A stretch of 34,787 nucleotides of DNA from Hyphomonadaceae bacterium (GTDB lineage Bacteria > Pseudomonadota > Alphaproteobacteria > Caulobacterales > Aquidulcibacteraceae), in NCBI GenBank assembly GCA_014378995.1, contig JACMMP010000224.1, positions 1 to 34,787 on the forward strand. The letters are read 5' to 3'. Below, in pieces: positions 3,229-17,163 of the stretch. A program made the translations under genes and the position numbers. Positions within the stretch are counted from its first letter, which is position 1. Every line of letters starts with the position of its first letter. The notes beneath the pieces are model-generated. The model ran no database searches. It saw only the letters and a program-made list of their open reading frames with translations, and had not been told where the DNA came from.

Positions 3229-3260
3229 CGCGACTCGGCAATGGTCACCTTGACATAGTA
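3229..3260 (+). repeat. E1 left target duplication and left terminal inverted repeat
   Basis: CGCGACTC (3229-3236) is the target duplication and 3237-3260 is the 24-bp inverted repeat. The repeat contains TTGACA (3250-3255), a consensus -35 box reading into the element. No equally good -10 follows on this side (GGTATC at the 17-bp spacing, or TGGTAT at 16 bp). Confidence 0.92.
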
Positions 3261-3270
3261 GGGGCTGCCT

Positions 3271-3453
3271 GTGGTATCTGATGAAAGACAGGCCGGCGCC
3301 GACACCCTCGTGGTCTCAGAAGAGGCCATCGAGGCTGCCGCATGGTTGCTGGCCGATCACACGTTCGCAGAGGGCCAGCCTACGATAGCGCAGGCGCGCG
3401 AGCTCATTCGTGAAGTGTTGCAAACCATGCGCGAAGCTCGTCCCGGCAACTAG
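3271..3453 (+). CDS. Small hypothetical protein in E1, 60 codons or fewer
   Basis: The ORF starts at GTG 3271 just inside the left end of E1 and encodes a mostly helical, acidic protein (SEEAIEAAAWLLADHTF near residues 16-32, then an ARELIREVLQTMREA helix). If the -35 box in the inverted repeat drives it, transcription would begin near 3284. The in-frame GTG at 3310 would then be the first usable start, giving 47 residues. Its last 50 nt overlap the 3' end of the minus-strand HEPN-like gene. I recognise no family. It could be a passenger gene of the transposon or a chance ORF. Confidence 0.4.
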   Translation: MVSDERQAGADTLVVSEEAIEAAAWLLADHTFAEGQPTIAQARELIREVLQTMREARPGN

Positions 3454-3979
3454 ATACCAACGGCTCAATGCGTGCGCGAATAGCGTGAAAGTGGTCAGCG
3501 TAAGCGTCGATTTGCTCAACATTGTAAGCATACAAGCCGACGCCAAAATTGAACTTCTTGGAGTACATCTCAAAGCCGCGCGGCGATTTTCGCGTGTCGT
3601 ACCACGTTGGAATTAGATACCAGCCGCTGTGGTCCTTCACTTTCGAACAAACGCCGTGAGCGATGTCATTTCTACGCGCGCCGAACTTCTCCACCAGCTT
3701 TAGGGCGTCCATGATCTCTTTGCGCGAGCCCGGAGTGGCGGCGGGGAAATATTCGGCCGCCTGCGACACTAACTGAAGGCGCGCGGCTCCTGAGATTAGC
3801 GTTCCGTATCCAGCACCAGCGCCGTCAGTTCGGGCGCCGATCAATTCCTCGTAGAGTTTTGATAGCTCATATTCCATGTATTCCCATGCAGAGAGGGATC
3901 GACCTACAGCGCGAAACAGTGAAGCCTGCGGGCTTCCCTGCGGCTGCATCGGTTGAATATCATACGGATTGACGGTCAT
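3404..3979 (-). CDS. HEPN-like hypothetical protein carried by E1
   Basis: The 191-residue soluble protein is mostly helical. It carries the sequence ARRNDIAHG (about residues 101-109), which matches the R-x4-H motif typical of HEPN-fold proteins; many of these are RNases in toxin or defence modules. Conserved aromatic residues follow (GWYLIPTWYD). It lies wholly inside transposon E1 and so is cargo. Its ATG (3977-3979) overlaps the ATG of the plus-strand small ORF at 3978 in the tetranucleotide CATG. The first ATG may not be the true start; an internal methionine lies at residue 11. The HEPN assignment rests only on the motif and the helical look; an RNase function is inference. Confidence 0.65.
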   Translation of the reverse strand: MTVNPYDIQPMQPQGSPQASLFRAVGRSLSAWEYMEYELSKLYEELIGARTDGAGAGYGTLISGAARLQLVSQAAEYFPAATPGSRKEIMDALKLVEKFGARRNDIAHGVCSKVKDHSGWYLIPTWYDTRKSPRGFEMYSKKFNFGVGLYAYNVEQIDAYADHFHAIRARIEPLVSSCRDELRAWFATLHE

Positions 3980-4139
3980 GGCTTCGCCCCCGAAAGACGA
4001 CGATTACAGCGCCGCAGAATCGCAGAAGCGCTTCGAGCAGGCCGTGGACGCGGCGCTGCGCACGCCGCCCATGCATCGCGCGCCCAAAAAATCCGCCAAG
4101 GCAAAGCCGAAAGCCAAAAAGGCGAAAGCAAAGCGTTAG
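3978..4139 (+). CDS. Small basic passenger protein of E1, 53 residues
   Basis: The ORF encodes an acidic, Ser/Ala-rich N-terminus (MASPPKDDDYSAAESQ), a short helix (KRFEQAVDAALRTPP) and a strongly basic tail of alternating Lys and Ala. Small proteins with an F-x2-A-x3-AL-x-TPP segment and a lysine-rich tail occur beside mobile and toxin-antitoxin-like genes in Proteobacteria; that recollection is not checked here. The tail could bind nucleic acid. The start codon overlaps the divergent HEPN-like gene, which suggests a paired and possibly co-regulated unit. Its ribosome binding site is weak. E2 carries a small protein of the same length (53 residues), also lysine-rich and with a similar FERA helix. 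Confidence 0.55.
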   Translation: MASPPKDDDYSAAESQKRFEQAVDAALRTPPMHRAPKKSAKAKPKAKKAKAKR

Positions 4140-4211
4140 GCATGGCGACGTTAGCTTGTCGCCATGCTGATCCGAGCGCTTGTGTTTGATGTTTCACCAT
4201 TGCTGGCGAAA

Positions 4212-4421
4212 TCACTCGCGAAAGTTCCGAATGATCTCGTCGAGAATGCGCTGCTTCGCGCCGCCGACGATCTCGCCCCACGTTTGATCGAAGCGAGCGT
4301 CGCAAGTGTTGCAAGTGACGACACTCGCGGGATCGTCTTGGTCCTCAACGTGAATGACGCCGCCGCCGCAGCGAGGGCAGTTGAAAGTCACCGGAACGTC
4401 GAATGAAGTTTGGTCGGGCAC
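4212..4421 (-). CDS. Small zinc-ribbon protein carried by E1
   Basis: The 69-residue protein has two CxxC knuckles, CPRC (residues 15-18) and CNTC (residues 37-40), 18 residues apart, which is the spacing of a zinc ribbon. The C-terminal third is a charged helix. The start is GTG at 4421, with AGGAG 8 nt upstream. It lies downstream of the transposase on the same strand, with about 240 nt between. No enzyme motif is visible. It may be an accessory nucleic-acid-binding protein of the transposon or a regulator of the neighbouring cargo; I cannot tell which. Confidence 0.6.
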   Translation of the reverse strand: MPDQTSFDVPVTFNCPRCGGGVIHVEDQDDPASVVTCNTCDARFDQTWGEIVGGAKQRILDEIIRNFRE

Positions 4422-4542
4422 TGGCGTAACTCCTGCGCTTCGCAGGACCGCCTTGACCTCTTGGTAATCGGATCGCGTATAATCCGACTCGTCGTTCCAT
4501 TGGTCCGGCGGCGATCCTGCAAGATTTGCCGGGCTTTCGACC

Positions 4543-4567
4543 GAAGGCGCCCCCCAAGGGCGCCTTC
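4543..4567 (-). other. Strong hairpin between transposase and zinc-ribbon gene
   Basis: GAAGGCGCCC (4543-4552) and GGGCGCCTTC (4558-4567) form a perfect 10-bp stem with a 5-nt loop. No T run follows on either strand. It lies about 100 nt after the transposase stop and may be an attenuator, an mRNA 3'-end stabiliser or a rho-assisted terminator. Confidence 0.45.
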
Positions 4568-4577
4568 AATCGTTTGG

Positions 4578-4604
4578 TCAACGAGAAGCTTCTCCCGGAC
4601 GCAT
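4578..4604 (-). CDS. Possible 8-residue leader peptide (MRPGEASR)
   Basis: A perfect AGGAGG lies 5 nt before the ATG at 4604, yet the frame stops after 8 codons. The strong hairpin at 4543-4567 follows 10 nt later, and the zinc-ribbon gene comes after that. The order of strong RBS, very short ORF and hairpin resembles an attenuation leader, but no run of regulatory codons is present. It may be the decayed start of a longer gene. Confidence 0.25.
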   Translation of the reverse strand: MRPGEASR

Positions 4605-4663
4605 TAAGGCCTCCTGAATCGTTCGGTAACGAAACAAGATTGCATTAGCGCTTACGCTTCTTG

Positions 4664-5623
4664 TTACGTCTGTGGGGGCGCTTCGCCTTCTTGGGCGTAG
4701 AGGTGGTCGAGACGAGTCCGCCGATAGGTCAGGCGCTTGCCGACGACGCCGGGGATTGCTTTCTCGAAACGCTGCTCGTCATTGACGCCAAGCGCCGTGC
4801 GCTCGTTGTAGCGATAGTCAGCCTCGCAAAGGTAGCGCTTCAAATGCTGCGACGAGACGTGAATGTAGGTCCCGCCGATCATGCGCTTTAGCGTCGAGAA
4901 ATAATTCTCGACGGTGTTGGTGTGGACGTCGCCGCGCACGTATTCTTCGACGCTGTGATTGACGGCGCTGTGTGCGGCCATGTCGCCGCCGATATAGGCG
5001 AACTGCGCCGCTTCATCGCTCATCAGGTGCGAATTGCGATCGATCTGCGAGTGCAGGATCGGGCGCAGCGTGGACGTTTTCACGTTGGGGACGTGACGCG
5101 AGCGCACCTTGCCGCCGCGCTCGACCAGCGCCAGCGCTTGCTCCTTCGGCGGCACGTGATGCTTGCGGTGACGGCCTTTGCCGCCGATCACGGTGGTGTC
5201 GGCCTCTACGAACTTGCCTTGGCCGCCCAGCGGCGGGTCAATCGCGTTCTGGCGCAGCGACTCACGAATACGGTGCATCAGAAACCAAGCGGTTTTCTTC
5301 GACACGCCAATCACGCGGCCCGCTTCGTTCGCGCTGATCCCGTTCTTCGCACTCATCAGCAATTGCGTGGCGAACAGCCACTTGTGCAGCGGCACATGCG
5401 AACGCTCGTAGAGCGTCCCCATGCGGACCGTGAAAGGCTCGCGGCAGGCGTTGCACTGATAGAGGCCAGGACGGGTCGTCTTGCCCTTCATCAGCGTCGC
5501 TTGATCGATCACGCCGCACTTGGGGCAGATCGGGCCATCCGGCCACAGGCGCTTTTCGAGGTAGGCGCGCGCGGCGTCCTCATCGTGGAAGATCGGATTG
5601 TTGTAGAGGCCAGCTTTCGACAT
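4664..5623 (-). CDS. IS1595-family (ISXO2-like) transposase of E1
   Basis: This 319-residue DDE-type transposase would cut and join the ends of E1. The N-terminal zinc ribbon has CPKC (33-36) and CNAC (57-60). A helix-turn-helix follows at about 96-120. The catalytic residues are D142 (VEAD), D203 (MSDEAAQF) and E239 (HTNTVEN). The family signature GKRLTYR is at about 295-301. The ATG is 49 nt from the right terminus. A promoter, TTGACA-17-TAGATT, ends 6 nt before the ATG, so the message is probably leaderless; GGGGG directly before the ATG is too close to act as a normal RBS. After GKRLTYR the +1 frame encodes a basic tail that runs past this stop to 4645, which suggests either a frameshift mutation or programmed frameshifting. 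Confidence 0.93.
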   Translation of the reverse strand: MSKAGLYNNPIFHDEDAARAYLEKRLWPDGPICPKCGVIDQATLMKGKTTRPGLYQCNACREPFTVRMGTLYERSHVPLHKWLFATQLLMSAKNGISANEAGRVIGVSKKTAWFLMHRIRESLRQNAIDPPLGGQGKFVEADTTVIGGKGRHRKHHVPPKEQALALVERGGKVRSRHVPNVKTSTLRPILHSQIDRNSHLMSDEAAQFAYIGGDMAAHSAVNHSVEEYVRGDVHTNTVENYFSTLKRMIGGTYIHVSSQHLKRYLCEADYRYNERTALGVNDEQRFEKAIPGVVGKRLTYRRTRLDHLYAQEGEAPPQT

Positions 5624-5629
5624 GCCCCC

Positions 5630-5658
5630 AATCTAGGGGTTGGGGCTTACTATGTCAA
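5630..5658 (-). promoter_or_regulatory. Transposase promoter of E1, -35 inside the terminal repeat
   Basis: On the minus strand TTGACA (5653-5658) is followed by a 17-bp spacer and TAGATT (5630-5635). Transcription would start at or next to the A of the ATG at 5623. The same geometry occurs in E2. Confidence 0.7.
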
Positions 5659-5679
5659 GGTGACCATTGCCCGCGACTC
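5648..5679 (-). repeat. E1 right terminal inverted repeat and right target duplication
   Basis: 5648-5671 is the exact reverse complement of 3237-3260. It is followed by CGCGACTC (5672-5679), the second copy of the 8-bp target duplication. Confidence 0.92.
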
Positions 5680-6431: not shown

Positions 6432-6527
6432 CTTGGACCGCCGGCGTCCTCGCCGGCGCGGCGGTTAGTTCTGAAAAGCCCGAGCGGGTTGAAACACCGT
6501 CGCCGGCGAGGACGCCGGCGGTCCAAG
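6432..6527. repeat. 27-bp perfect inverted repeat between folB and SDR gene
   Basis: 6432-6458 and 6501-6527 are perfect reverse complements (starting CTTGGACCGCCGG) with a 42-nt spacer. Each arm also contains an internal CGCCGGCG-type palindrome. It looks like a REP/BIME-style dispersed repeat that can fold into a long hairpin between the two coding regions. No other full copy lies in this window. Confidence 0.8.
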
Positions 6528-14425: not shown

Positions 14426-14457
14426 ATTGCCCAGGCGATATTATACTTCCCGTACCC
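14426..14457 (+). repeat. E2 left target duplication and left terminal inverted repeat
   Basis: ATTGCCCA (14426-14433) is the duplication and 14434-14457 the inverted repeat. This end has CTTCCCG where the transposase end has CTTGACG, so the -35 box is lost on the cargo side. Confidence 0.9.
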
Positions 14458-14493
14458 AGGCGAAAGCTAAGTCCCCGTTTCTAAAGTAGACAG

Positions 14494-14530
14494 AAATAGA
14501 AACCCGCTTCCCCTCGGGCCTTTCCTATTT
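14494..14530 (-). terminator. Imperfect hairpin ending the E2 cargo operon
   Basis: On the minus strand AAATAG, AAA and CCCG pair in order with CGGG, TTT and CTATTT across small bulges. The hairpin ends in a T-rich stretch, about 40 nt after the membrane-protein stop and just inside the left end of E2. Confidence 0.5.
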
Positions 14531-14571
14531 GTGGATAGAGCTAGGATCGAAGTCCGCGAATAGGAAGCGCG

Positions 14572-14886
14572 CTACCAGCCAAGCATTTGCTTGAGCTCCG
14601 GCCATGACGGGGTCAGGTCCGTTAGCTGCAGAAACGCGACAAGCCAGAACCCAACAATCGCGCCAAGTATGTAGTAGGAAACCCGCGCATCCCAGGGGAA
14701 TGAATGATCTCTCGCCGAAAGAGATCGAAACGCGAGGGCCAAGCCAATCGTCGCGCCGATCGCACAAACCGCAATCCATTTTTCCGGATATGGCGCTGGC
14801 GTTTTGTACCCCGACCAATCCGACACCTTGAAGAGTATGGCCGCGTGGGCGGCGATCAAAGCGCCACGGAGCGTATAGTTGTTCAT
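14572..14886 (-). CDS. Small membrane protein carried by E2
   Basis: The 104-residue protein has hydrophobic segments at about 36-53 (WIAVCAIGATIGLALAF) and 70-88 (YYILGAIVGFWLVAFLQL), plus a weaker N-terminal one, so two or three membrane spans are likely. I recognise no family. Its ATG overlaps the stop of the 53-residue gene by 4 nt (ATGA), a sign of translational coupling. It is the last gene of the E2 operon. A small membrane protein next to a nucleotidyltransferase-fold protein could be an effector, but nothing in the sequence proves this. Confidence 0.6.
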   Translation of the reverse strand: MNNYTLRGALIAAHAAILFKVSDWSGYKTPAPYPEKWIAVCAIGATIGLALAFRSLSARDHSFPWDARVSYYILGAIVGFWLVAFLQLTDLTPSWPELKQMLGW

Positions 14887-15044
14887 TGGGCGCTTTCGCC
14901 CTGCGGTTTTTTGGGCGGCACGATCTTCCCAAACGCGCGCTCAAACGCTTCCGCGTTCTTGTCCGCGCCGAGCTCTTTCGCCGCTTCTTTGAAGCGCTCG
15001 TGTTGGGGTTTCTCGTTTGGATTAGTCGTTTTCTTCTTCGGCAC
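14883..15044 (-). CDS. Small lysine-rich passenger protein of E2, 53 residues
   Basis: The protein starts MPKKKTTNPNEKPQHERF and continues with a helix KEAAKELGADKNAEAFERAFG and a PPKKPQGE tail. The start is GTG at 15044 with AGAGG about 7 nt upstream. It overlaps the 3' end of the nucleotidyltransferase gene by 23 nt and the start of the membrane-protein gene by 4 nt. Small proteins with an ERFKEAA-x-ELG-A-D helix are common in Proteobacteria next to mobile genes; this is recalled, not checked. Like the small protein of E1 it has 53 residues, a central FExA-type helix and many lysines. The function is unknown. Confidence 0.65.
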   Translation of the reverse strand: MPKKKTTNPNEKPQHERFKEAAKELGADKNAEAFERAFGKIVPPKKPQGESAQ

Positions 15045-16062
15045 GGGCAAGCCTCTTCAGTTCAGGAAGTAGCTTCTTCAGTGTGGCCGGAAGCCAAGGC
15101 ATATCTTTCACATTCATTGATAGGCCCAAGTTTCGTTGGGCAAGTCTACACACAATGCGCGCGTGGGAGGCGTCTTTGACGCTCTTCAGTGCGTTTCGGC
15201 TGCCCTGTTTCGACACCCATAGCTTGTGAAGAGCAAAGGTCCTGGGTTCAGGAACGACTATGCGCAGCGGTAGGCCATCGGCGCCGACAACGGTTTGAGC
15301 GAACGCAGGCCCGGTCAACAGCCATTCAATATTCCCTATGGGTTGCGCCTCTACATCTCCAACCGGGCGCATAATCGCGATTTCCTCGTTCTCGGGCACG
15401 ATCAAGTCAACGATGTAGCCGCGATCATTGCGTACAATCATTCCATAGTCGGCAGTAAATGTGGGATCCACGCGCTGAAGGATGCTCATCAGTCCATCGC
15501 GACGAACTACACTTGTGGCCGACAGCAATAGCGAGTGTCGATTGTCCCATATGAGGTCTGCGTCGGTTGTCGTGGTATAGCGGCCGCCGACAAAGACGCC
15601 GGCAGCCATCTCGTAAGCATATAGAGCATTCGTACCGGCTACTATGATGTGGGGGCCCAGCAACCCCTCTCGGTCAAGCTCTCGAATAATCCGCGCCGCA
15701 ATGAGCGGGACGCGCGCTATGCCCACGGCCTTATTAACTGGAGCCATTTCTTCCGCGCGCGCGCGGAGCCGTCTAACGCGCGCGCGCAACGTTTTCATCC
15801 GCGCATCGTTTTCGACCTTCCGTCTTGCAAGCGCTGGCGTCTCTCGTCCAAGCGATTTCCGGTTGCCCTGAACCTTCTCGTATAAGTACCGTTTGCCCTT
15901 TGATGTGTGCCACGCGAGGCGCGGACTCATCTCCATATCGCGGTCAACGGGGCGCCAAGCGTCGAATAGCTGTTGGACGTCGATCAGTTGGCGACGTTGC
16001 TCTTCCGACAATTCTGAGTACAGCAAGTGGACCAAGCCTCTGAAATTACGCGGTTGTGTCAC
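15022..16062 (-). CDS. GSU2403-family nucleotidyltransferase-fold protein carried by E2
   Basis: The 346-residue protein has a coiled, charged N-terminal half (about 70-115) and a nucleotidyltransferase domain. The domain begins with IIVAGTNALYAYEMAAGV and has the catalytic acidic pair in TTTTDADLIW (D167 and D169). It then runs to a C-terminal region with HKLWVSKQ, where many relatives have a lysine. Proteins of the GSU2403 family resemble nucleotidyltransferases of toxin-antitoxin and abortive-infection modules; the activity here is inference. I prefer the GTG at 16062 (MTQPRNFRGLVHLLY). The TTG at 16092 lies in the first arm of a 14-bp inverted repeat and gives an unlikely N-terminus. GGGA lies 6 nt before the GTG. 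The gene lies downstream of the transposase on the same strand. Confidence 0.78.
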   Translation of the reverse strand: MTQPRNFRGLVHLLYSELSEEQRRQLIDVQQLFDAWRPVDRDMEMSPRLAWHTSKGKRYLYEKVQGNRKSLGRETPALARRKVENDARMKTLRARVRRLRARAEEMAPVNKAVGIARVPLIAARIIRELDREGLLGPHIIVAGTNALYAYEMAAGVFVGGRYTTTTDADLIWDNRHSLLLSATSVVRRDGLMSILQRVDPTFTADYGMIVRNDRGYIVDLIVPENEEIAIMRPVGDVEAQPIGNIEWLLTGPAFAQTVVGADGLPLRIVVPEPRTFALHKLWVSKQGSRNALKSVKDASHARIVCRLAQRNLGLSMNVKDMPWLPATLKKLLPELKRLARAEEEND

Positions 16063-16094
16063 TTTATCCCGATTCCAGGAAAAGTGACACAACC
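16052..16094 (-). promoter_or_regulatory. 14-bp perfect inverted repeat covering the nucleotidyltransferase start codon
   Basis: GGTTGTGTCACTTT (16052-16065) and its exact reverse complement (16081-16094) flank a 15-nt loop. In the minus-strand transcript the GTG start codon falls inside the second arm, and the GGGA Shine-Dalgarno-like sequence sits in the loop. It could be a hairpin that masks the start codon or a DNA operator. Confidence 0.65.
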
Positions 16095-16156
16095 AAGCGA
16101 TTTCAATTATTTAAGCCGCTTTCCCTTTCCATCGGGATCGTCGCTTACGCTTAACC

Positions 16157-17107
16157 TTAGGCTTCGGGCCTGATTTCCCGATCAACCGTTCGGTACGTCA
16201 GCCGCTTGCCCTTCACGCCTTCTACGATGCGGGCAAAGCGAGTGACGTCATCCACGCCGAGCTTGGCCCGGTGGCTGTAGCGGAAATCAAATTCCGCGGT
16301 GTAGCGGTGCAAGTGCTGGCGTCCGCAGTGTTGGTAGACGCCTTTCATGCCGCGCTTGAAAACAGAGTAATGGCCTTCAACGGTGTTGGTGTGGACCCAA
16401 GGCGCTTCCTTGCGGACGTACTCTTTTTCGCTGTGGTTTACGGCGTGGAAGGTTTGCTGCTCACCAGGGCGCTTGTATTGCGGCGCTTCGTCAGTGATCA
16501 AATAGGCTTCCTTCGCAACGTTCTCATTCAAGATGCGCTGCGTTTCTTCGGTGGTGAACTCGGTCATGACGAAAGAGCGCGCGGCGCCGCTGTCGCGATC
16601 GATTAGCGTCATGACGCGGTTATACATGCCGGCGTGATAGGAGCCGTCCTCACGCGGTTCTTTGCGGGGATCGATTCCTTGCAGCGTTTCGTCAGCCTCA
16701 AGACCGCCAAAGCCAGAACCGAACATGCCGCCGCTCGTGTCCTTCCTCGCTTCACGGATGCGGTGAGAGAGAAACCAGGCGCTCTTTAGCGTCACGCCCA
16801 GCGTGCGGTGCAGCTGGTTGGAGCTGATGCCCTTCTTGCTGGACGCGATCAGAAACATCGCCTGAAGCCAGATGTGCAGCTTGATGTGGCTGCTCTCGAA
16901 GATCGTCCCAACCTTCACCGTGAAAGGCTTGCGGCAGGAATAGCACTTGTAGACGCCCAGGCGGGTGCTCTTGCCCTTCAGGGCGCCGCTGTCATCGACC
17001 ACGCCGCAATGGGGGCAGACACGCCCGTTCGGCCACACGCGGGCTTCAACCCACTTGTAGGCCGCTGCTTCGTCGCGGAAGTGCTTGGCGTCTAGAACGC
17101 TACCCAT
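16157..17107 (-). CDS. IS1595-family transposase of E2
   Basis: This 316-residue DDE-type transposase has a zinc ribbon CPHC (31-34) and CYSC (55-58), a helix-turn-helix around 94-120, and catalytic residues D139 (LEADE), D206 (LITDEAPQY) and E244 (HTNTVEG). The family signature GKRLTYR is at about 300-306. It is well diverged from the E1 transposase but collinear with it. The ATG is at nucleotide 49 from the terminus, exactly as in E1, and TTGACG-17-TACCTT ends 6 nt before it, predicting a leaderless message. Past GKRLTYR the +1 frame encodes a Lys/Arg-rich tail (KPKVKRKRRSRWKGK) that runs to 16111, beyond the annotated stop. Confidence 0.93.
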   Translation of the reverse strand: MGSVLDAKHFRDEAAAYKWVEARVWPNGRVCPHCGVVDDSGALKGKSTRLGVYKCYSCRKPFTVKVGTIFESSHIKLHIWLQAMFLIASSKKGISSNQLHRTLGVTLKSAWFLSHRIREARKDTSGGMFGSGFGGLEADETLQGIDPRKEPREDGSYHAGMYNRVMTLIDRDSGAARSFVMTEFTTEETQRILNENVAKEAYLITDEAPQYKRPGEQQTFHAVNHSEKEYVRKEAPWVHTNTVEGHYSVFKRGMKGVYQHCGRQHLHRYTAEFDFRYSHRAKLGVDDVTRFARIVEGVKGKRLTYRTVDREIRPEA

Positions 17108-17113
17108 GCCCTG

Positions 17114-17142
17114 AAGGTAGCGGGTTCATTTGGGTACGTCAA
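17114..17142 (-). promoter_or_regulatory. Transposase promoter of E2, -35 inside the terminal repeat
   Basis: On the minus strand TTGACG (17137-17142), a 17-bp spacer and TACCTT (17114-17119) end 6 nt before the ATG at 17107. Position and spacing are the same as in E1. Confidence 0.65.
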
Positions 17143-17163
17143 GTATAATATCGCCATTGCCCA
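17132..17163 (-). repeat. E2 right terminal inverted repeat and right target duplication
   Basis: 17132-17155 matches the left end in 22 of 24 positions. ATTGCCCA (17156-17163) is the second copy of the target duplication. Confidence 0.9.

Follow-up and report, generated by a model that had tools for sequence, protein, structure and literature searches.

A probable promoter at the transposon end serving leaderless and leadered transposase genes in alphaproteobacterial IS1595-type elements

The window, which is the whole stretch of DNA analysed (34,787 nucleotides; contig JACMMP010000224.1 of assembly GCA_014378995.1), derives from a Hyphomonadaceae bacterium assigned to the family Aquidulcibacteraceae, hereafter the host family, of the alphaproteobacterial order Caulobacterales. 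It harbours two complete transposons, E1 and E2, the features of which are given below; nucleotide (nt) numbers within an element are counted inward from its outer end.

3237-5671, minus strand: E1, complete IS1595-type transposon of 2435 bp (repeats, 8-bp duplication, Pfam PF12762 and PF12760)
3229-3236, no strand: left copy of the E1 target-site duplication, CGCGACTC (sequence)
5672-5679, no strand: right copy of the E1 target-site duplication, CGCGACTC (sequence)
5648-5671, minus strand: E1 terminal inverted repeat, transposase side, 24 bp, identical to the far-side copy
3237-3260, plus strand: E1 terminal inverted repeat, far side, 24 bp, with TTGACA here too (3250-3255)
5653-5658, minus strand: putative E1 -35 box TTGACA, nt 14-19 (sequence and promoter scan)
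5630-5635, minus strand: putative E1 -10 box TAGATT, nt 37-42, the TAG within the box being an in-frame stop
5626-5645, minus strand: candidate dyad or hairpin in E1, its arms on either side of the -10 box, nt 27-46 (pairing tests)
4664-5623, minus strand: E1 transposase, ATG at nt 49, the putative transcription start (ORF, Pfam)
14434-17155, minus strand: E2, complete IS1595-type transposon of 2722 bp (25-bp repeats, 92%; 8-bp duplication; Pfam)
14426-14433, no strand: left copy of the E2 target-site duplication, ATTGCCCA (sequence)
17156-17163, no strand: right copy of the E2 target-site duplication, ATTGCCCA (sequence)
17131-17155, minus strand: E2 terminal inverted repeat, transposase side, 25 bp, 92% against the far side
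14434-14458, plus strand: E2 terminal inverted repeat, far side, 25 bp
17137-17142, minus strand: putative E2 -35 box TTGACG, nt 14-19 (sequence)
14447-14452, plus strand: TTCCCG at the -35 position of the E2 far end, hence no -35 at an end that would need none (sequence)
17114-17119, minus strand: putative E2 -10 box TACCTT, nt 37-42, weak (sequence)
16157-17107, minus strand: E2 transposase, ATG at nt 49 (ORF, Pfam)

The transposases of E1 and E2, which are 44% identical, contain the DDE_Tnp_IS1595 domain (PF12762; 109.4 and 84.1 bits, respectively, with a cut-off of 27) and an N-terminal zinc ribbon (PF12760; 48.1 and 39.6 bits, with a cut-off of 25.4). The target duplication of the IS1595 family is 8 bp, the length displayed by both E1 (CGCGACTC) and E2 (ATTGCCCA), and the two elements also share with this family, characterized by an ISXO2-like transposase, the short inverted repeats and the presence of extra genes beside the transposase. 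At their far ends the two elements are unlike, TTGACA being present at both ends of E1 and TTCCCG at the far end of E2.

Read inward from position 5671, E1 displays TTGACA at nt 14-19, a 17-nt spacer, TAGATT at nt 37-42, six bases and the ATG at nt 49 (position 5623). In E2, read inward from 17155, TTGACG occupies nt 14-19 and, after a 17-nt spacer, TACCTT occupies nt 37-42; the ATG starts at nt 49 (position 17107), again six bases after the -10 box. The coordinates given in the original prediction for the -35 (inside the repeat), the -10 (nt 37-42) and the ATG (nt 49) of both elements were therefore right. A generic promoter scan names the E1 promoter (10 of 12 matches) and does not list that of E2; over 14 kb it found 2 promoter-like sites, fewer than the 3.5 found on average in shuffled sequences, and is, by itself, no evidence. 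The evidence lies in the geometry that is fixed among relatives.

Matches were found in the window's own genome (4 copies), in 28 of 60 genomes of the host family, in 73 of 289 and 68 of 289 genomes at class level and in 122 of 299 genomes at order level. Named genomes and viral contigs contributed the best 80 of 555 loci and, from a second search, the best 80 of 427, with 15 more added, a sample biased towards relatives of E1, and long stretches were taken at 52 host-family, 8 class-level and 60 order-level places, hand-picked among the matches listed and mostly having a profile match similar to E1 and E2. Element ends were assigned by a script from a repeat match (at least 17 of 26 positions) combined with an exact 8-bp duplication, the promoter sequence not being used, and start codons were assigned from a profile alignment followed by the nearest ATG. 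In a first set, 230 profile matches, 229 of them long enough, yielded 129 elements (97 had no exact 8-bp duplication with a repeat of at least 17/26, and three contigs were too short), reduced to 127 by dropping two elements with called starts at 286 and 383. A second set, from sister families, yielded 45 elements from 61 transposases and was reduced to 42 by removal of L399, a chance repeat, and of two elements whose first 60 nt duplicated those of elements already included. In total, 290 transposases gave 174 elements that passed and 169 that were kept, 116 being left out for lack of an exact duplication with a repeat or because of a contig end. Six starts were set by hand (L266 from nt 73 to 49, L415 from 61 to 49, L418 from 44 to 50, L430 from 97 to 67, L432 from 91 to 67 and L441 from 75 to 63). 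Outside this strict set, 13 of 24 host-family transposases have a TTGA placed as a -35 would be relative to an in-frame ATG, and 11 have none, nine of which resemble a subgroup with a different N-terminus (L259 and L267-L269 among others).

Comparison of these relatives shows a -35-like sequence that is fixed in position and frequently one-sided. TTGAC starts at nt 14 in 138 of the 169 transposase ends; at this position, 78 elements carry it only on the transposase side, 60 on both sides, 29 on neither and 2 only on the far side, and in the 127-element set the one-sided cases number 59 at the transposase end and 1 at the far end (p = 1e-16). Mismatch between the two ends, assessed in the same 127 elements, is highest at nt 16 and 17, the GA of TTGAC (0.33 and 0.31), and does not exceed 0.19 elsewhere in nt 1-24, the stretch matched between both ends within which the -35 (nt 14-19) sits. 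A -10-like TAnnnT starting at nt 36-38 is likewise present in 83 of 127 transposase ends versus 17 of 127 far ends. The predicted location of the -35 inside the terminal repeat is thus borne out, and the promoter-to-end geometry is common to a wide range of relatives. In the reading favoured here, binding by the transposase would keep both ends alike, except where one of them must act as a -35 box. Alternatively, TTGAC may be a mere part of the transposase-binding site, the shared distance a product of common descent and the promoter located elsewhere, as the 60 elements with TTGAC at both ends (E1 included) and the conservation of the whole repeat could suggest. This alternative is nevertheless very improbable in view of the one-sided occurrence of TTGAC (78 versus 2) while neighbouring positions of the repeat stay matched, of the restriction of the -10-like box mostly to the transposase end, and of the 22 changes of leader state on the best tree, described below, during which the -35 position stayed fixed.

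With respect to this end, comparison shows two states of the start codon, which lies at nt 48-51 in 43 of the 169 elements and at nt 61-84 in 126, with none at nt 52-60. A Shine-Dalgarno 4-mer (GGAG, GAGG or AGGA, 17 to 5 nt before the start) precedes 112 of the 126 late starts and none of the 43 early ones, those of E1 and E2 included. The leaderless design that had been proposed would apply to these 43 elements, in which the ATG is on, or at most 2 bases from, the putative transcription start site and no Shine-Dalgarno 4-mer is found. Beyond the host family, the majority of relatives have a leader, with starts at nt 61-84. The distance from the element end to the ATG does not vary freely, as anticipated, but neither is it a single constant. 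Similarly, of the notion that spacing and not sequence is conserved, the first half stands, while sequence was found to be kept as well (TTGAC, CTAGATT and the dyad round the -10).

The median distance from the start to the first CxxC is 31 codons for early and 29 codons for late starts in the 127-element set, while that from the element end to the first CxxC is 141.5 and 154 nt, respectively. Since the N-termini are nearly equal in length, the coding region appears to have been shifted towards the end rather than extended, and the similar start-to-CxxC and different end-to-CxxC distances suggest that the leader was lost or gained with little change in the protein. These values also bear on whether the start codon was misplaced, the true start lying downstream with its own Shine-Dalgarno sequence on a leadered mRNA. 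Although starts were called by profile alignment and nearest ATG from the sequence alone, such an error is extremely improbable, as a start at nt 49 gives N-termini nearly as long as those of leadered relatives and ATG is the start codon of every one of the 36 leaderless elements in the first set.

Of 28 host-family leaderless elements, 22 have a TAnnnT beginning at nt 37 (0.39 expected upon shuffling nt 25-48), as do 1 of 8 leaderless elements from other hosts (0.11 expected; the remaining ones in the first set have TAnnnT at nt 36 or 38-40) and 38 of 91 leadered elements (1.84 expected). The dinucleotide CA, a common transcription start, is found at nt 48-49 in 58 of the 126 leadered elements, the next best position within nt 42-55 accounting for 18. 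This peak argues for a single start site, nt 49, shared by both states; in E1 and E2 this site would be the A of the ATG. Together with the one-sided, end-fixed TTGAC, the peak suggests a promoter fixed to the end, with transcription starting near nt 49 and the ATG placed either on the start site or after a short leader.

The best explanation, which is considered highly probable, is that alphaproteobacterial IS1595-type elements carry one promoter fused to the transposon end and two alternative positions of the start codon, E1 and E2 being leaderless. The -35 (nt 14-19) would lie within the repeat recognised by the transposase and the -10 (nt 37-42) just inside it, with RNA starting at about nt 49. 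An ATG on the start site would yield a leaderless mRNA devoid of a Shine-Dalgarno sequence, the 5' ATG itself being the point of ribosome loading, while an ATG 12-35 nt further in would yield a short leader, usually containing a Shine-Dalgarno sequence. Transposase bound to nt 1-24 would cover the -35 and shut off its own gene, a plausible autoregulation given that this stretch, alike at both ends, spans the -35. In IS1 and IS30 the transposase promoter overlaps the terminal repeat, and autoregulation is the usual proposal. The elements described here resemble them in having the -35 inside the transposase-bound end, but differ in that a fixed promoter would serve both leaderless and leadered versions and in that the -35 is often found at one end only.

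Leaderless elements are unevenly distributed among hosts, accounting for 28 of 30 in the host family but for only 7 of the 42 elements from four sister families within Caulobacterales (Fisher p 3.6e-11); the two exceptions in the host family, L283 and L300, are leadered with starts at nt 63. If the hand-set starts are ignored, 27 of 30 host-family and 6 of 42 sister-family elements start at nt 51 or less, and nt 52-60 are still empty. Among 54 elements from named genomes only 5 are leaderless, all from Sphingomonadales, an order that contributes 5 leadered elements as well, and the 44 that remain, 12 of which have no assigned order, are all leadered. In the best tree built from the 169 transposases, a quick one in which 45 of 166 inner branches are open, leader state changes 22 times and host-family membership 13 times, starred branches alone forcing 16 (leadered, other hosts) and 11 (leaderless, host family), and four of the five nearest relatives of E1 by tree path are leadered. 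In independent pairs differing in leader state, the host differs in the same way in 7.2 pairs on average, in the opposite way in none and not at all in 8.8 (median p 0.0156, range 0.0039-0.0625, for 169 elements; median p 0.0078, range 0.0039-0.0312, without viral contigs). With the first 127 elements this test was not significant (median p 0.125), becoming so after addition of the 42 elements from sister families. As shown by this comparison of transposons, the leaderless state recurs across the transposase tree and its repeated changes are linked to the host family.

Such a link might simply reflect a general translation habit of the host family, an explanation that fits the contrast between 28/30 and 7/42 and the abundance of leaderless mRNAs in Caulobacter, reported as 375 or 9.6% of CDSs (PMC4117421). 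It is, however, unlikely, as a leaderless-like promoter was found in none of 42 transposase genes of the PF01527 and PF01609 families from the host family (42 of 60 loci fetched, two of the 42 having no start in reach and being left unscored), while the same leaderless classifier accepts 24 of the 30 host-family IS1595-type genes and none of the 126 leadered ones. A Shine-Dalgarno 4-mer precedes some in-frame start in 36 of these 42 genes. Since these other transposase genes of the host family look Shine-Dalgarno-led, the leaderless state seems to be specific to the IS1595-type transposon in this host rather than to belong to all mobile genes. Ordinary genes displayed no leaderless excess either, at low power: in two crude scans, each of 400 kb from host-family and other alphaproteobacterial genomes, no TAnnnT peak was found at the leaderless spacing before ATG, which is weak evidence given the unreliable start calls and the small number of genes with a clear upstream gap (122 per group).

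The leaderless elements of the host family often read CCCAAT-N6-ATTGGG round the -10. A fixed-register pairing test gave 0.477 at the best register against a per-column expectation of about 0.45, and a hairpin was first judged to be absent; a second test, in which adjacent registers were permitted and the 3' arms were dealt as units between elements, was picked after the first had been seen and reversed this result. The mean longest stem in 26 host-family leaderless elements is 5.31 versus 4.5 with dealt arms, and in 12 representatives less than 70% alike it is 5.25 versus 4.05 (p about 6e-4 with G-U pairs and 1e-3 without), the best register being centred at nt 36.5. No pairing signal was detected in leadered elements (3.49 versus 3.42 dealt) or in 15 leaderless elements from other hosts (3.47 versus 3.25, with 238 of 1000 shuffles as high). 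The stem comprises 6 bp in E1 and only 4 bp in E2. Moreover, in 22 of 28 host-family leaderless elements the nearest in-frame stop lies 4 codons 5' of the ATG, at the -10 (nt 37-39 for an ATG at nt 49). The stem would be missing from RNA begun at nt 49 and present beside the ATG in RNA arriving from outside.

The dyad may instead act at the DNA level, as an operator bound by a repressor, rather than as an RNA hairpin on read-through messages; an operator could also account for the host link. This is a possibility to be held with some reserve: its centre on the promoter, the CCCAAT/ATTGGG common to many arms and the absence of a dyad signal in leadered elements agree with an operator, whereas the arms vary and yet stay complementary beyond dealt arms in the 12 representatives, and in L272, L273 and L279 a six-base pairing depends on counting G-U pairs. 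If the RNA hairpin is retained, the leaderless design, the hairpin and the stop would together cause RNA from a neighbouring promoter to give little transposase. In IS10, IS50 and IS200, hairpins shield transposase genes from read-through by hiding the Shine-Dalgarno sequence. The stem proposed here is similar in that, located by the start codon, it would exist only in RNA from outside, but differs in that elements of the E1 and E2 type have no Shine-Dalgarno sequence to hide. Tentatively, the two positions of the ATG may constitute a switch, in which a leaderless lock, formed by loss of the Shine-Dalgarno leader and gain of hairpin and stop round the -10, would allow transposase to be made only from RNA begun at the element's own end, its repeated adoption in one family being an adaptation to host or context. 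The insulation from outside transcripts that had been predicted is favoured by the lack of a Shine-Dalgarno sequence, the in-frame stop at the -10 and the hairpin by the ATG. On the other hand, Caulobacter is reported to translate its mRNAs with equal efficiency whether they are leaderless, non-Shine-Dalgarno or Shine-Dalgarno (PMC4117421), which makes this step uncertain.

One gene family displaying both states on what seems to be the same promoter, with about 22 changes on the best tree, bears on the question of why leaderless and Shine-Dalgarno genes coexist in one cell and offers ready natural pairs, so that the cost and benefit of each state could be tested with matched constructs. The proposed arrangement would, moreover, offer a transposon an easy means of remaining silent once inserted into a transcribed gene. 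Promoters located in transposon ends are already known. Leaderless genes are known as well, with 375 reported in Caulobacter (PMC4117421) and 119 TSS-gene pairs in Zymomonas (PMC7566282). These alphaproteobacterial mRNAs have in common with the proposed ones an ATG at the transcription start and no Shine-Dalgarno sequence, but they are genes from mapped transcriptomes, whereas in the present case the state recurs within one family of transposons and is deduced by sequence comparison. Among open-access titles and abstract openings, no report was found of the promoter architecture of the IS1595 family or of a leaderless IS1595-type transposase. Nor were a fixed promoter with two leader states, their repeated change or the link to a host family encountered in this open-access literature.

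Further observations concern the passenger genes and neighbouring sequences. E1 and E2 each contain a small protein of about 53 residues (3978-4136, plus strand, and 14889-15047, minus strand, respectively), for which no Pfam family scored above cut-off (best 13.8 bits, DMP19, cut-off 25). By tblastn, a small protein with a lysine-rich tail has matches in 19 of the 169 elements, always opposite to the transposase, and the other small protein, matched in 42 of the 169, is in each case encoded on the transposase strand; the two never occur together in one element. E2 carries in addition a nucleotidyltransferase (NTP_transf_8, PF12281, 158 bits; 15022-16092, minus strand), for which no PADLOC match was found. 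Five IS1595-type transposase genes from the same genus (L287, L291, L301, L302 and L305, considered with about 1.2 kb around the transposase) combine a palindromic -35 (TTGACCGNTCAA) with identical leaderless spacing, but passed no repeat-plus-duplication test. Their gene unit is 75-97% alike in DNA and is preceded by a short common stretch that reads like the E1 small protein, and they are possibly a domesticated or differently ended group. Finally, a perfect, GC-rich 27-bp inverted repeat with a 42-nt loop lies at 6432-6458 and 6501-6527, and a 25-nt inverted repeat (84%) with a 15-nt loop lies at 16041-16105, at the start of the nucleotidyltransferase ORF and adjoining the E2 transposase ORF.
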